A stretch of 64,000 nucleotides of DNA from Phycisphaerae bacterium. Lineage in GTDB: Bacteria > Planctomycetota > Phycisphaerae > Phycisphaerales > Phycisphaeraceae. Under the pieces are notes generated by a model, which was not told the origin of the DNA, did no database searches, and worked only from the letters and a program-made list of their open reading frames with translations. Shown piece by piece: positions 7,042 to 29,532 of the stretch. The stretch covers positions 124,001-188,000 of the forward strand of contig JAUHZU010000006.1 of NCBI GenBank assembly GCA_030425705.1. The letters run 5' to 3'. The translations under genes and the position numbers were made by a program. Each line of letters starts with the position of its first letter. Position 1 is the stretch's first letter.

Positions 7042-7505
7042 GTGATGCGGCTGTGGCGACCGCGGTCCTGCTTCGGCAGGGACGAGGAAAGTCCGAGCAC
7101 GACAGGACACGGTGGTGGGTAACACCCACCGGCCCGGGGGGCGACGCCCGGGTCAGGGACAGTGCCACAGAAAACAAACCGCTGGGGAAGGGGCTCAGGG
7201 GTCCAGGGGCAGAGGGGCCGAGTGTTGCGTTCGCCGCGTTTCACTTGGCCCCTTAGCCCCTCGGCCCCTTGGCCCCTTCCCGAGTAAGGGTGAAAAGGTG
7301 CGGTAAGAGCGCACCGGGCGCCGGGCGACCGGCGTCGCACGGTAAACCCCACCGCGTGCAAGCCCAAGCAGCCCCGGGGAGCATTGCTCCCGCCGCCGGT
7401 CCGGCGTGGGGTGGGTAGGGTGCTGGAGCCCGTCGGCAACGGCGGGCCTAGAGAAATGGTCGCACCGCCTTGGCGGAACAGAACTCGGCTTACGGGCCGC
7501 ATCAC
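7042..7505 (+). ncRNA. rnpB: RNase P RNA, type A, with extended P12
   Basis: This is the catalytic RNA of RNase P, which matures tRNA 5' ends. The ends GTGATGCGGC and GCCGCATCAC are perfectly complementary and form P1. Conserved blocks appear in order: GAGGAAAGTCCGAGC (CR-I), CACAGAAAACAAACCGC (CR-II), AAGGGTGAAAAGGTGCGG TAAGAGCGCACC (P12 exit and P13), GGTAAACCCCACC (CR-IV) and AGAAATGG plus ACAGAACTCGGCTTAC (CR-V). The total of 464 nt is longer than the usual 350-400 nt. The excess is a roughly 98-nt P12 arm (7184-7281) built from iterated GGGGC/GCCCC runs. Confidence 0.96.
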
Positions 7506-7510
7506 AACAC

Positions 7511-18264: not shown

Positions 18265-21200
18265 ATGGGACAGATCACGACCGGCGTCGGCCTCATCAGC
18301 GGCCTGGATATCGCGTCGATCGTCGAGCAGCTCGTCGCGATCGATGCCCGGCCGCGCACCCTGCTGCAGAACCGCAACGAGGTCCTGCGCTCGCAGCAGG
18401 TCGCGTTCCAGGAGATCAATGCCCGGCTGCTCTCGCTGAAGACCTCCGCCAGCGAATTCGCCGGCACCTCCCTGTTCACCGGCACGACCGCGAGCACCTC
18501 CAACGAGAACGTCCTCACCGCCAGCTCGGGCATCGGCGCGGTGCCCGGCACCTACAGCTTCATCGTGAACCGCCTGGTCTCGGCCCAGCAGTCGATCACC
18601 CGCGGGTTCCAGGACGCCTCCACGACCCCCGTCGCACCCAACGGCACGGTGCTGTCGTTCGACCGCGGGGAGGCCCGGCTCGACTCCCAGACCCGGCTGT
18701 CCCGGCTGAACGGCGGCGACGGGATCAGCCGGGGCCAGATCCGCATCACCGACCGCTCCGGCGCGACCGCGCTCGTGGACCTCACGTCGGTCGTCACCGT
18801 CGACGACGTCATCGACAAGATCAATAACGCGACGGGCGTGAACGTCATCGCCGAGATCGATGGCGACCGGCTGTCGCTGACCGACGCGTCCGGCTCAACA
18901 TTGGGCGAACTCAAGGTCACCAACGTCGGCACGTCTGGCACCGCCACTTCGCTTGGCATCGCCACCGACTCGACCCTCGACGGCGACGGCGACGACAACG
19001 TGCTGACCGGGAGCGTCATCAACACCGTCGGGCGGAACACGCTGCTCGCCTCGCTCAACGACGGCAAGGGCGTCCGCGCGACCGCCGGCAACGCCTTCAC
19101 GATCACCGCTTCCGACGCGACCTCCGTCACGGTCGACCTTAGCGGTGCGCTCACGCTCGGCGACCTGTTCGACCAGATCGAAGAGGAGTCCGGCGGCGTG
19201 CTGACCGCCCAGGCCAACGACGACGGCACGGGCATCAAGATCATCGACAACTCCGGCGGCGGTGCGGGCTTCACGATTACCGCCGGCGCCAACGCCAACA
19301 CCCTCACCGACCTCGGGCTTGTGGCGGGCAACGACGGCGACGGCGACGGCGAGATCGCCGGCGGCCGGACCATCGCCGCGATCAACTCTAAGCTGCTCAG
19401 CGGAATTAACGGCGGCGGCGGGGCGGGCGTGGTGCTCACACGCGAACTGACCGCCGCGACCAACCTCTCGGCCCTGCTCGACGGGACCGGTCTGTCGACG
19501 ACCGGCGACAGCGGCGAAGACATCAGCATCCAGACCCGCGACGGCGCGAAGGTCTCGCTCGACCTGGACGCGGTCTCGACGGTCCAGGAGTTGATTGATC
19601 TGGTCAACACTGAGTCGGCGGGCTCGCTGACGCTCTCCATCGAAGATAACGCGCTGCGGCTGACCGACAACACCGGGGCGACCGCGCAGAACCTGGTCGT
19701 GTCCAACGGCACGGGCAGCAGCGCCGCGGCGCAGCTCGGGCTGGTTACGGATGTGGCCAGCAACACCGTGCTCGGCAGCGACACGAACCCGGCCGGCACC
19801 TACCAGCCGGGGGGCGGGCTCGGCACGATCCGCATCACCAACGGGCTAGGCGTGGCGACGGACATCGACCTGACCGGCGCGCAGTCGGTCAGCGAGGTGC
19901 TCGACCGGATCAACGATTCGGGCGCGGGCGTCACCGCGTCGCTCAACAGCGCGGGCACCGGCCTGAAGATTACCGACGACACCAACGGCAACGGCGACCT
20001 GACGATCGCCGACCAGTCCGGCGAGGCCGCGGCGTCGCTCGGGCTTGCCGGTACATTCGTCAACGGCGTCGCCGACTCGGGCGACCTCGAGTACGCCTAC
20101 ATCAACGGCGGCACCCGGCTGGACGACCTGGGCATCGCCCGCGGCCAGTTCACCATCCGCGACAGCGACGGCGACACCGCAACCGTTGACATCACCCAGG
20201 GCAACGAGTTGACGATCAACGACCTGCTCAGCGAGATCAACAGCCGCGGGCTGGACATCCTCGCCCGGGTCAACGACACCGGCGACGGCATCGTGATCGA
20301 AGACCTTGGCTCGGGTGCCGTCGCCATCCAGGTCGAGGACAGCGGCTCGACCACCGCCCGGGACCTGGGCCTCCTGGGGACCGCTGCGAACGCCGGCGAA
20401 GACTACGTCAGCAGCTTCGAGAAGAACATTACCGTCACTTCGACCGACTCGCTGCAGGACGTCGCCAACAAGATCAACGACGCGAACATCGGCGTCGCCG
20501 CCTCGGTGATCAACGACGGCTCGCCCGGCGCGCCCTTCCGGCTGTCGCTCAGCTCCGAGACCGCGGGCACCGCCGGGGCGTTCACCTTCGACGACGGCGG
20601 GGCGGGCTTCGCCGCCTCGACGCTGAGCCGTGCCCAGGACGCCGTGGTGTTCTACGGCGGCAATGACCCAGCCAACTCGATCCTCATCGAGTCGCGCTCG
20701 AACACGCTCTCGTCGGTCATCCCCGGTGCCGACATCACCCTGCTGACCACCAGCGATCAGCCGACCCAGGTCACCATCGGCCGGGACGAAGAAGCCATCA
20801 TCTCCAGCGTCGAGAGCTTCGTGACCGGCTTCAACTCGATGATCGATACCCTCAACCGCTACGACTCATACGACGCCGAGAACGAGGTCCGCGGGCTCCT
20901 GCTGGGCGACAGCACGGTCGGCCGGATCCGCAGCAGCGTCTACAACGCGGTCATCAACCCCAACAACGCGCTCACCGGCCAGTACAAGTCGCTGGCCCAG
21001 GTCGGCATCCGTGTTGGTGCCGGTGCCAAGCTGGAGTTCGACCCGGACAAGTTCCGCCAGGCGCTGACCAACGACCGCGAGGCCGTCGAGGCCCTGTTCA
21101 ACTTCGAGCAGTTCGAGATCGACCCGGACACCGGCGAAGAGACCGAGACGCTGGTCGCCCAGGGCATCGGCGTCGAGATCAACGATCTGCTCGAACGCCT

Positions 21201-26583: not shown

Positions 26584-26626
26584 CCGGGCAGTTTAGCAGG
26601 GCCCACGCGGTATGAACGTGCCCGTG

Positions 26627-27313
26627 TCAGTTCAGCGGCAGCCCGTGCTCGCCGGTGCAGGGGCCCATCCCGTCGGCGACACGCAGCGTGTCCCGGGTCC
26701 GCCGGAGCAGGCCGATCAGCCGGCGAGCACGCCGTACTGCGCACGGCTCGGACAGCACCCGGTAGCGCTCCGCCGGGTCCCGGCTGAGCGCATGCCACGA
26801 GAGATCGGTCACCGCCGCGGTGGGCAGTTCAGGTGTCATCCAGTTGCGGATTGCGCCGATCCCCGCGAGCTTCTGCAGCGCGCCGTCTTTGAGCAGCTCG
26901 GTGAGCTGGTCGCGGTGTTCCTGCAGGTCGATCTCCATGACGCCCGCATCGATCGGCGCGAGCCGCGCCCGCCGGTACCCGCCGGGGTCTTCGTCGAACT
27001 CGTCAAGAAGGCGGGCGCGGGCGATCCCCTGGAGCAGGATGTTGTATCGGCCGTCGTCGAGGCGCTCGTGGTGCACGATGTAGCCCACGCACACGCAGGG
27101 CTTGAGCACGGGCCGGCCGTCAACATCGAGCAGGTCGCTGTCGATCGTCGCCATCGCGATGAGGCCAGTGCTGTCCAGCGCGTCGCAGGTCATCGCCCGG
27201 TAGCGCGGCTCGAAGATGTGCAGCGGCATCGCGCTGAGCGGCAGCAGCACGCAGCCCGGCAGCGGGAACAGCGCGATCGGCTTGTTGAAATCGATGGTGA
27301 GCGTCAGTGGCAT
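26627..27313 (-). CDS. Lon N-terminal (LAN/PUA-like) domain protein
   Basis: The 228-residue protein consists of the substrate-binding N-terminal domain of Lon protease without the AAA or protease domains. FNKPIALFPLPGCVLLPLSAM, then PLHIFEPRYRAM, and GYNILLQGIARA-like DGRYNILLQGIARARLL are the family signatures. Stand-alone proteins of this kind are widespread and their function is not established. The ATG at MPLTLTIDF fits the family start; further in-frame upstream sequence is low in conservation. It lies between the helicase and cysE on the same strand. Confidence 0.88.
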   Translation of the reverse strand: MPLTLTIDFNKPIALFPLPGCVLLPLSAMPLHIFEPRYRAMTCDALDSTGLIAMATIDSDLLDVDGRPVLKPCVCVGYIVHHERLDDGRYNILLQGIARARLLDEFDEDPGGYRRARLAPIDAGVMEIDLQEHRDQLTELLKDGALQKLAGIGAIRNWMTPELPTAAVTDLSWHALSRDPAERYRVLSEPCAVRRARRLIGLLRRTRDTLRVADGMGPCTGEHGLPLN

Positions 27314-27412
27314 AGCGGCCGATTGGCGTGGTGGCGCAGAAGCCGGGCGATCCACTCGTATCGTAGGCGCCCGACCGCGGCGGGGCTGCATGCGCCGCCC
27401 GCGGCTGGACGT

Positions 27413-28381
27413 TCAGATGGACCAGTTCCCCGAGCCGTCGCCGCCCCGGGCCTTGAGCTGCGGCTCGGGCTGGGTGGACAGCACGACGTGGTCCGGCGGG
27501 ACGCTCCGGGTCAGGAACACAGAGCCAGCGATCGTCGACCGCGCCCCGATCACGGTGTCGCCGCCGAGGATCGTGGCCCCGGCATAGATGGTCACGTCGT
27601 CCTCGATGGTCGGGTGGCGCTTCTTGTGACGGAGGTCCTGCCCGCCCTTGGTGGACAGCGCGCCGAGGGTGACGCCCTGGTAGACCTTGACGCGCTTGCC
27701 GATCTCGGTGGTCTCGCCGATCACGACACCGGTAGCGTGATCGATGAAGAACGACTCACCGATGGTCGCGCCGGGGTGGATGTCGACGCCGGTCTCGTTG
27801 TGGGCGTACTCGCTCATGATGCGTGGCAGCATCGGCACGTCCAAGCGGAACAGCGTGTTCGCGACGCGGTGGATAAACACCGCATCGACCCCGGGGTAGC
27901 AGAAGACCGCCTCGTCGGTGTGCTTCGCGGCCGGGTCGCCGTCGAACGCGGCCTGGACATCCAGCGCGAGGGCCCGGCGGAGCGCGGGGAGCCCCTGCAT
28001 AAACGCGTTGGTCGCGACACGGGCCTGCGTGTCGCAGTCATCGCAGTCGTCGCCCCGGCCGGACTGCTGGGCGTTCTCCCGGTACCGCAGGGACTGACGG
28101 ACCTGGTCGTAGAGCAGCGCGTCGAGCTGCCGGACCAGCTCGCTGACGTGTGCGTGCAGGCGGGCGGAGGTCAGGCGGTGGTCGTCAAAGAACCCGGGGA
28201 AGACGATCCGCCGGATCAGCTCGATGCACTCGACCGCGCGGGCCCGGCTGGGGAGGAAGGTCGCGTCGATGTGCTGGGTCCGCCCGTCCTTGGGGTAAGA
28301 AACCATCAGCGCCTCGACCACGGCGTCGAGGTCGGCGGGCGGTGCGGCGTCGATGGGTTGGTCCATGGGGCGGGTGTCCAT
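27413..28381 (-). CDS. cysE: Serine O-acetyltransferase (cysteine biosynthesis)
   Basis: CysE acetylates L-serine to O-acetylserine, the first step of cysteine synthesis. The 322-residue protein has a long helical N-terminal region and a left-handed beta-helix of hexapeptide repeats. DIHPGATIGESFFIDHATGVVIGE contains the catalytic His/Asp pair, and VYQGVTLGALS with DDVTIYAGATILGG continues the helix. It belongs to the longer EpsC/SatA group rather than the enterobacterial 270-residue form. A cysteine-rich insertion (GDDCDDCDTQ) is seen near residue 110. The upstream 410 bp have no gene but a strong fold (see 28464). Confidence 0.94.
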   Translation of the reverse strand: MDTRPMDQPIDAAPPADLDAVVEALMVSYPKDGRTQHIDATFLPSRARAVECIELIRRIVFPGFFDDHRLTSARLHAHVSELVRQLDALLYDQVRQSLRYRENAQQSGRGDDCDDCDTQARVATNAFMQGLPALRRALALDVQAAFDGDPAAKHTDEAVFCYPGVDAVFIHRVANTLFRLDVPMLPRIMSEYAHNETGVDIHPGATIGESFFIDHATGVVIGETTEIGKRVKVYQGVTLGALSTKGGQDLRHKKRHPTIEDDVTIYAGATILGGDTVIGARSTIAGSVFLTRSVPPDHVVLSTQPEPQLKARGGDGSGNWSI

Positions 28382-28463
28382 GCCGCCATCATAGCCGTGG
28401 AAATGCGCAGCGGATGGTGCCGGAGAAATCCCGGAGGTTCGCGAGGCGTCGCGGAGGCGGGGC

Positions 28464-28675
28464 GTTCGAGTGCGCGGTTTCGGGAGGCCGTCGGCGTGTC
28501 CCGAACCCCAAGATCAGGTGGGTGCATCGCCGGGTCAGCCGGGCCTTCCCCTTCGCCGACATCCGAAGATGCAGGCGGGGGCTTGACCGTCGTGCCCAGT
28601 CCCGCTCCCTTGGGGCTCGACAGGTTCGAGAGCACTTTGCCGAGTATCCGGCCTCTCGAAACCGCGTAGTCGAAC
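28464..28675. ncRNA. candidate structured RNA or small inverted-repeat element upstream of cysE
   Basis: The stretch 28382-28791 has no convincing gene. Within it, 28464-28491 and 28648-28675 are inverted repeats matching at 24 of 28 positions. Inside is a second arm (CGAACCCCAAG at 28510-28520 with CTTGGGGCTCG, about 28612-28622). An inner arm pairs GGTCAGCC with GGCTTGACC and closes on CATCCGAAGATG, which on the minus strand is CATC-TTCG-GATG, a UUCG tetraloop. An alternative hairpin GGTTCGAGAG / CTCTCGAAACC competes with the outer arm. The rod shape with an asymmetric bubble recalls 6S RNA, but strand and identity are not settled. Minus-strand TAGAAT near 28738 could be a -10 box. Confidence 0.4.
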
Positions 28676-28791
28676 CGGCCGGAGTCTGGCCGGGGGCGCC
28701 GCGTGCCGTCACGCGGCCGGTGAATCTATCGGCCATTCTACCCCGCGTGCGCCAGCGGGCCAGCGCGGCGTATGCATTTTTTGTGATGGCC

Positions 28792-29532
28792 TTACAGGGT
28801 CCGTGTTGGCGGAGGAGTAGACGCGAGATCCATCGCAACCCGGAGCAATGCCTGCTTCTGTTCATCAAGTACATTCGCGACGTATGCCCAATAGAAGGAG
28901 CCGGGGATCGTCCATAACACCCCGCTGACGATCAGGGCGATCACCGTATCTTCCATCGATTGCTCAACGACCGCGGCGGTGCACACCACCGCGAGTTGAG
29001 TCAGCAGGCAGGCGGCTGCAAAACCCATCGCAAGATATATCTTCGCGCGATAGGTGATCCTGATCGCAATCACAAACACGCAGACGTAATGGATCGTCAA
29101 CGATGCTGCAAAGCAGGTGAGGAGTGTGACGAAGCGGAATGAAGACCAGGCATACGATGGGGCAATAAAAGCCGCGGCCATACACGCGAAGACGCTAAGC
29201 AGGGAGAGCCATGTCGCGTGCCTAATGACGGCCCAGTGCATGCCGGTCGGCATCCGCCGGATCAACATCACCAGGCCGATGGTCCAGGGGATCAGGCCCA
29301 ACCCGATCGCGAGCATAGAGATCAAGCCGAACGCGAGCAGCCGGCACGGCTCGACCGCCGTGAAGGGCCAGCGCTCCACGCGGTACGAGGCGATACTGTG
29401 TTTCACGGCACTACCGCACTCCGGGCAGCTCGCAGCGACTCGGAGCGCACGCAGGTTGTACCCGCACTGGAAGCAGGGAAGGTCTGTGTCGACTTCCAAG
29501 TGGGGCTCGGTCACGGGCGTGTCGTCAGCCAC
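28792..29532 (-). CDS. membrane protein with N-terminal zinc ribbon
   Basis: The 246-residue protein begins with a zinc-ribbon motif CFQCGYNLRALRVAASCPEC (residues about 20-39), followed by about six TM helices (for example LLAFGLISMLAIGLGLIPW, IYLAMGFAAACLLTQLAVV and VIALIVSGVLWTIPGSF). This CxxCxYNLxxL...CPECG head on multi-TM proteins is frequent in planctomycetes. Function is unknown. A second such protein is at 49458-50129. The gene overlaps the aldo/keto reductase gene by 8 bp and is lower in GC than neighbours. Confidence 0.75.
   Translation of the reverse strand: MADDTPVTEPHLEVDTDLPCFQCGYNLRALRVAASCPECGSAVKHSIASYRVERWPFTAVEPCRLLAFGLISMLAIGLGLIPWTIGLVMLIRRMPTGMHWAVIRHATWLSLLSVFACMAAAFIAPSYAWSSFRFVTLLTCFAASLTIHYVCVFVIAIRITYRAKIYLAMGFAAACLLTQLAVVCTAAVVEQSMEDTVIALIVSGVLWTIPGSFYWAYVANVLDEQKQALLRVAMDLASTPPPTRTL

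Follow-up and report, generated by a model that had tools for sequence, protein, structure and literature searches.

A very probable, strongly diverged 6S RNA gene upstream of a cysE-like gene in the Phycisphaeraceae, missed by the standard Rfam model

Bacteria use 6S RNA, an established RNA family, as a mimic of an open promoter; it holds RNA polymerase and is released through the synthesis of pRNA. In Bacillus subtilis 6S-1 RNA, according to PMC8876501, refolding and release are aided by a collapse helix in the central bubble. In this helix the 5' bubble strand pairs with the 3' strand of helix P2, to the exclusion of part of P2, and 6S-1 has an additional hairpin in the 3' bubble. For Escherichia coli 6S RNA, PMC8876501 describes an extended 3' bubble hairpin that acts in release.

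Earlier reports touch on the distribution and control of this RNA. PMC5673643 reports no 6S RNA in Thermogutta terrifontis and, with reference to Wehner 2014, gives it as absent from two others, and PMC8567305 makes a bare mention that Rbn controls 6S RNA. PMC2864571 states that an expanded 6S RNA collection is provided in an additional file, which may thus already contain published 6S variants of planctomycetes.

The locus described here occupies positions 28464-28675 of the window, the whole 64,000-nucleotide stretch of a Phycisphaerae bacterium genome that was analysed. It is very probably the single 6S RNA (ssrS-type) gene found in this genome, read from the minus strand between about 28728 and 28464, and it is well supported as a strongly diverged 6S RNA gene that the standard Rfam model misses. 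With E. coli 6S RNA it shares the general architecture of rod and bubble. With the 6S family as modelled in RF00013 it shares the length, the paired ends, the central bubble between two arms and the GGG..CACCCACCU core, as well as -10 boxes and terminators in many relatives and model matches in orthologues. It departs from RF00013 in that the window copy is not reported by the model, the outer stem is long and GC-rich and the apical arm is enlarged; moreover, a partly covarying helix can form across the bubble here, a helix that the RF00013 consensus structure does not contain.

The 212-nt element was singled out by a first-pass annotation as a foldable rod in a gene-free region, with outer arms inverted at 24 of 28 positions. 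The inverted match of the arms (28464-28491 and 28648-28675) was confirmed at 24/28 positions, the exact C(UUCG)G tetraloop is present on the minus strand, and the sequences of the proposed competing hairpin (28623-28663) were found by eye. As to the description as gene-free, three long ORFs overlapping the element (28389-28874 minus, 28150-28917 plus and 26612-28669 plus) gave no Pfam match. The 212-nt element is predicted to fold, like the rod of roughly 180-200 nt typical of 6S RNA, with its 5' and 3' ends paired to each other and its helical arms separated by a central bubble. Its minimum free energy was -116.8 kcal/mol on the plus strand (z -6.2) and -111.2 kcal/mol on the minus strand (z -5.8), and on neither strand did any of 200 dinucleotide shuffles match it (0/200). 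In a scan of 152 minus-strand window tiles, with z values that are noisy at 20 shuffles per tile, the element reached z -4.1 and two tiles were more extreme, at 7141 and 20161. The former corresponds to RNase P RNA, a class A copy of which was matched at 7043-7508 on the plus strand with 241.6 bits. The latter (20161-20372) had the top fold of the scan, z -5.5 over its 20 shuffles, and its plus strand is protein-coding in appearance by eye.

The identification as 6S RNA is carried by covariance models. RF00013 gave no match in the window at its gathering cut-off of 46.4 bits, which is a detection threshold and not a biological feature; it did not report the window copy on 28350-28850 at E up to 10, and it reported no place across the window's own genome. 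The Rfam check proposed for the element was therefore negative for the window copy itself but positive for its relatives, since homology to RF00013 is shown through the orthologues: a row was found at the homologous place, on the minus-strand equivalent, in 16 of 20 family loci, bearing out the earlier guess of a 6S-like RNA gene. Fourteen of these rows span the full model and two span positions 32-155, with E from 1e-11 to 0.46, several being weak. Two loci scored above the cut-off (69.2 bits in L022 and 63.8 in L017) and the lowest score was 25.0, and there was no row at the remaining four of the 20 (L002, L007, L009 and L014). Other Rfam rows on the element (mir-8830 and PyrR208) were far below cut-off and were discarded as chance.

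R1, a covariance model built from 17 family members, none of them of the window's genus, matched the window at 28641-28491 on the minus strand with 96.8 bits (E 1.1e-25, a rough value since the calibration was short), the next best match in the window reaching 12.7 bits. Because the members of R1 were first gathered through DNA similarity to the element, this match is a consistency test and not a blind prediction. In the reciprocal direction, six of seven class-level R1 matches were retrieved (26 to 36 bits) and RF00013 called all six, two above its cut-off; over all 14 loci of this reciprocal test, an RF00013 row stood at the place in 12. A broader model, R2, was built from sequences within the class alone and contains none of the eight best phylum-level RF00013 loci, yet it re-found those eight at the same positions with 21 to 48 bits. 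The orientation of the element, previously left undecided, is settled by these matches as the minus strand. A plus-strand RNA was rejected because the RF00013 matches in relatives, the R1 match in the window and the terminators are all on the minus side. The argument that mismatches in the outer stem become G-U pairs on the plus strand held by half, two of the four mismatches giving G-U there and none on the minus strand.

The features assigned to the locus are listed below in the order in which the minus strand is read, the core match and the neighbouring gene standing last; A4 denotes an alignment of 59 members that MAFFT built with no structural input.

28735..28740, minus strand: -10-like box TAGAAT, located by script; TAGAAT or TAAAAT also precedes the RNA in the three genus relatives that carry it
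28675..28717, minus strand: leader with two strong hairpins (28698-28717 and 28675-28693) predicted in the window fold
28648..28675, minus strand: outer closing stem, 5' strand
28623..28634, minus strand: helix P2, 5' strand, ending in the first GAACC (A4, covariation); presumed pRNA template region
28619..28622, minus strand: 5' central-bubble nucleotides between the two repeats (A4)
28610..28618, minus strand: second copy, reading GAGCCCCAA in the window; 5' strand of the alternative cross-bubble helix
28604..28609, minus strand: GGGAGC, inner helix, 5' strand (both-side changes at column pair 44-155)
28526..28603, minus strand: apical arm with the C(UUCG)G loop, its terminal part enlarged in the window and in genome G001
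28520..28525, minus strand: GCACCC, inner helix, 3' strand, and start of the conserved GCACCCACCU motif
28503..28511, minus strand: UUGGGGUUC, 3' strand, its GGUUC pairable with either 5' copy
28496..28507, minus strand: helix P2, 3' strand (A4, covariation)
28464..28491, minus strand: outer closing stem, 3' strand
28491..28641, minus strand: core matched by R1 (96.8 bits)
27413..28381, minus strand: cysE-like gene, downstream neighbour on the same strand, identified by a Pfam Hexapep match only and here taken to be cysE

Judging from the position of TAGAAT, transcription would be expected to start about 7 nt downstream of the box, near 28728. The leader of G001 has similar hairpins by eye, of different sequence; G002 and G003 are without them and have the box closer.

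The helices flanking the bubble covary. In the 59 rows of A4, both-side changes occurred in eight of the 12 pairs of helix P2, the three outermost pairs counted failing in 19 to 27 rows, and in the inner helix GGGNGC/GCNCCC pair 44-155 changed on both sides in 24 rows, the other four pairs being invariant. The covariation score exceeded every slid register and all 500 shuffles (0/500), which related sequences can outscore even without structure. The number of pair types was not above chance, being reached by 64/500 and 30/500 shuffles. A compensatory change from CCCCAA/UUGGGG to CCUCAA/UUGAGG was present in G001, and change at pair 34-174 was also present in L006, L010, L037 and L067.

A DNA search of 61 genomes with the element, at E up to 1, matched three relatives of the genus strongly and others across the family more weakly, in a table that also includes many chance rows. 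The weaker matches fell mostly in two blocks, one for each side of the rod's central part, and across the family the interior of the element is conserved and its ends are not. The rod is nearly palindromic, so that 13 of the 21 loci examined were retrieved on the opposite strand. All 15 named records with the core motif were labelled Phycisphaeraceae, Phycisphaerae or Planctomycetota.

The model genome scans used stricter filters, with the loss of weak matches. R1 matched 51 of 298 class genomes, and R2 matched 116 of 151 order genomes, many of which had served in its training, with one match each except in G021, which had two. The second of these (G021:C312:16607-16737, 58 bits) may be a paralogue or a sign of a mixed assembly. 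RF00013 matched 172 of 392 phylum genomes, 102 of them above its cut-off; among the 61 close relatives, 28 had a row when E up to 10 was allowed, part of these rows being due to chance (for example in G001), and seven exceeded the cut-off. Under the strict filters R2 found no match in 35 of the 151 order genomes, some of them near-complete. Four near-complete genomes of one genus, g34 (G037, G042, G046 and G050), gave no match to RF00013, R2 or the window CysE. When eight match-less genomes were searched by synteny, the window CysE was matched in three, and R2, run on two of these CysE loci (L113 and L115), found nothing there (best 9.7 bits). Either absence of 6S RNA or its further divergence would account for the match-less genomes of the order.

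Signals resembling promoters and terminators accompany the RNA in many relatives. Many loci, read on one strand, have a TATAAT box upstream and a hairpin followed by a T-run downstream. In A4, -10-like boxes were present in 29 of 59 rows and terminators in 32, against 8.2 and 1.4 expected from mononucleotide shuffles. In the window's own family these signals rose to 23 and 21 of 27 rows, and outside the family and its nearest neighbours they were sparse. The window copy has TAGAAT at 28735-28740 as its sole transcription signal, no U-run terminator and no two-hexamer consensus promoter having been found there.

A cysE gene lay downstream on the same strand within 800 bases at 29 of 64 loci, comprising 29 of the 44 with flanks of about 1.5 kb and none of the 20 with flanks of about 1 kb. 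Strain ZRK32 (CP066225.1) is one relative with the RNA next to cysE. In G001, the order of 6S, cysE, a Lon-substrate-domain gene, a UvrD-type helicase and four genes on the opposite side is the same as in the window. On that side, the ORF at 28792-29532 (minus, 246 aa) has cysteine pairs near its start by eye and no Pfam match, and a relative, 48% identical, was found at only the G001 locus among 24 searched.

This linkage, together with the lack of a terminator between the RNA and cysE in the window, could be read as a cis-acting cysE leader, a riboswitch or attenuator folding in the nascent cysE transcript. Such a leader is very unlikely, as a terminator follows within 170 nt downstream of the core in 21 of 27 family rows, and the 6S models match both the family loci (RF00013) and the window (R1). 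In addition, the RNA is retained at eight loci from another family in the order (L046, L049 and L055-L060) that have no cysE within about 1.5 kb, which is more than a simple cysE leader would explain.

It is similarly improbable that the window's genus carries a decayed 6S gene, homologous but no longer functional. RF00013 misses the window copy while some relatives pass, the outer arms have diverged and the terminator is missing, all of which would fit decay; the core, however, keeps its conserved motifs, the window sequence pairs in both bubble registers, and the change in G001 is compensatory. A miniature inverted-repeat element, the alternative previously raised and one to which the imperfect 28-nt terminal arms would lend themselves, is so improbable that it can be set aside, because a DNA search of the 4.1 Mb genome returned the element itself as the sole match, where several dispersed copies would be expected, and because the element holds an orthologous place beside cysE in many relatives and is conserved across the family in its interior and not at its ends.

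The bubble of these RNAs is flanked and entered by a repeated sequence. An exact GAACC stands at the first copy in 46 of 59 rows and an exact AACC at the second in 28, the window having AGCC at this latter place. The first register can form in 51 rows, the second in 43 and both in 36, the window among them; the second register comprises four pairs that are exclusive with the rival P2 pairs. What sets these RNAs apart from B. subtilis 6S-1 is the second P2 copy, which can give a cross-bubble helix of 6 to 10 bp, and such a helix is also the predicted alternative structure where E. coli has its extended 3' bubble hairpin.

Covariation offers a measure of this helix. Of the 59 rows, both-side changes were seen in 5 at pair 34-174, in 10 at 36-172 and in 9 at 38-171, and these pairs failed in 0, 14 and 18. 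As they can also form beside an intact P2, they favour a helix across the bubble but are no proof of a switch. All four bubble pairs were intact in 32 rows. The longest cross-bubble helix had a median of 8 pairs, whereas shuffling of the 5' strand gave a mean of 5.2; on average 10% of shuffles reached the observed length, which makes this a weak control for any single row.

Folding of the 59 cores alone gave the open register P > 0.5 in 41, the collapsed register in 6 and neither in 12, with a median energy difference between registers of 2.3 kcal/mol (range -3.7 to 13.7). For the window core the collapsed register was favoured (0.74 vs 0.29), the minimum energies being 0.1 apart. The proposal, drawn from the window fold, that the free RNA is mostly collapsed fails for the set, in which the open register prevails. 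At class level, four loci of one family (L074, L075, L077 and L079) have GAACC repeated as GAACCC by eye; in four phylum-level alignments no second AACC was seen in the 5' bubble, and one of these loci, L107, could form a six-pair cross-bubble helix of other sequence.

A tentative interpretation, drawn from these predicted folds and somewhat doubtful, is that the 6S bubble of the order is bistable owing to the repeat of the P2 sequence within the 5' bubble strand, GGUUC pairing with the first copy in an open state or with the second in a collapsed one. By analogy with 6S RNA elsewhere, the element would be expected to bind polymerase and template pRNA. The rod would mimic an open promoter and occupy the RNA polymerase holoenzyme with the housekeeping sigma factor, and the polymerase would copy the 5' bubble strand into a short pRNA, upon which the RNA would be released. 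In this lineage, pRNA synthesis would take up the first GAACC and free the GGUUC of the 3' strand, which could then close the bubble by pairing to the second copy, much as the collapse helix does in B. subtilis 6S-1. Release would be helped because, with the first GAACC engaged, GGUUC is available to the second copy. As the predicted energies of the two registers are often close, the RNA would switch to the collapsed register once pRNA is made over the first copy, and this would help to eject the polymerase.

For the Planctomycetota, the present results indicate that calls of 6S absence based on RF00013 should be rechecked, as the lineage model recovers the RNA in 116 of 151 order genomes while RF00013 exceeds its cut-off in only 7 of 61 relatives. 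With its bridged bubble, the lineage also lends itself to tests of the collapse model for 6S release.
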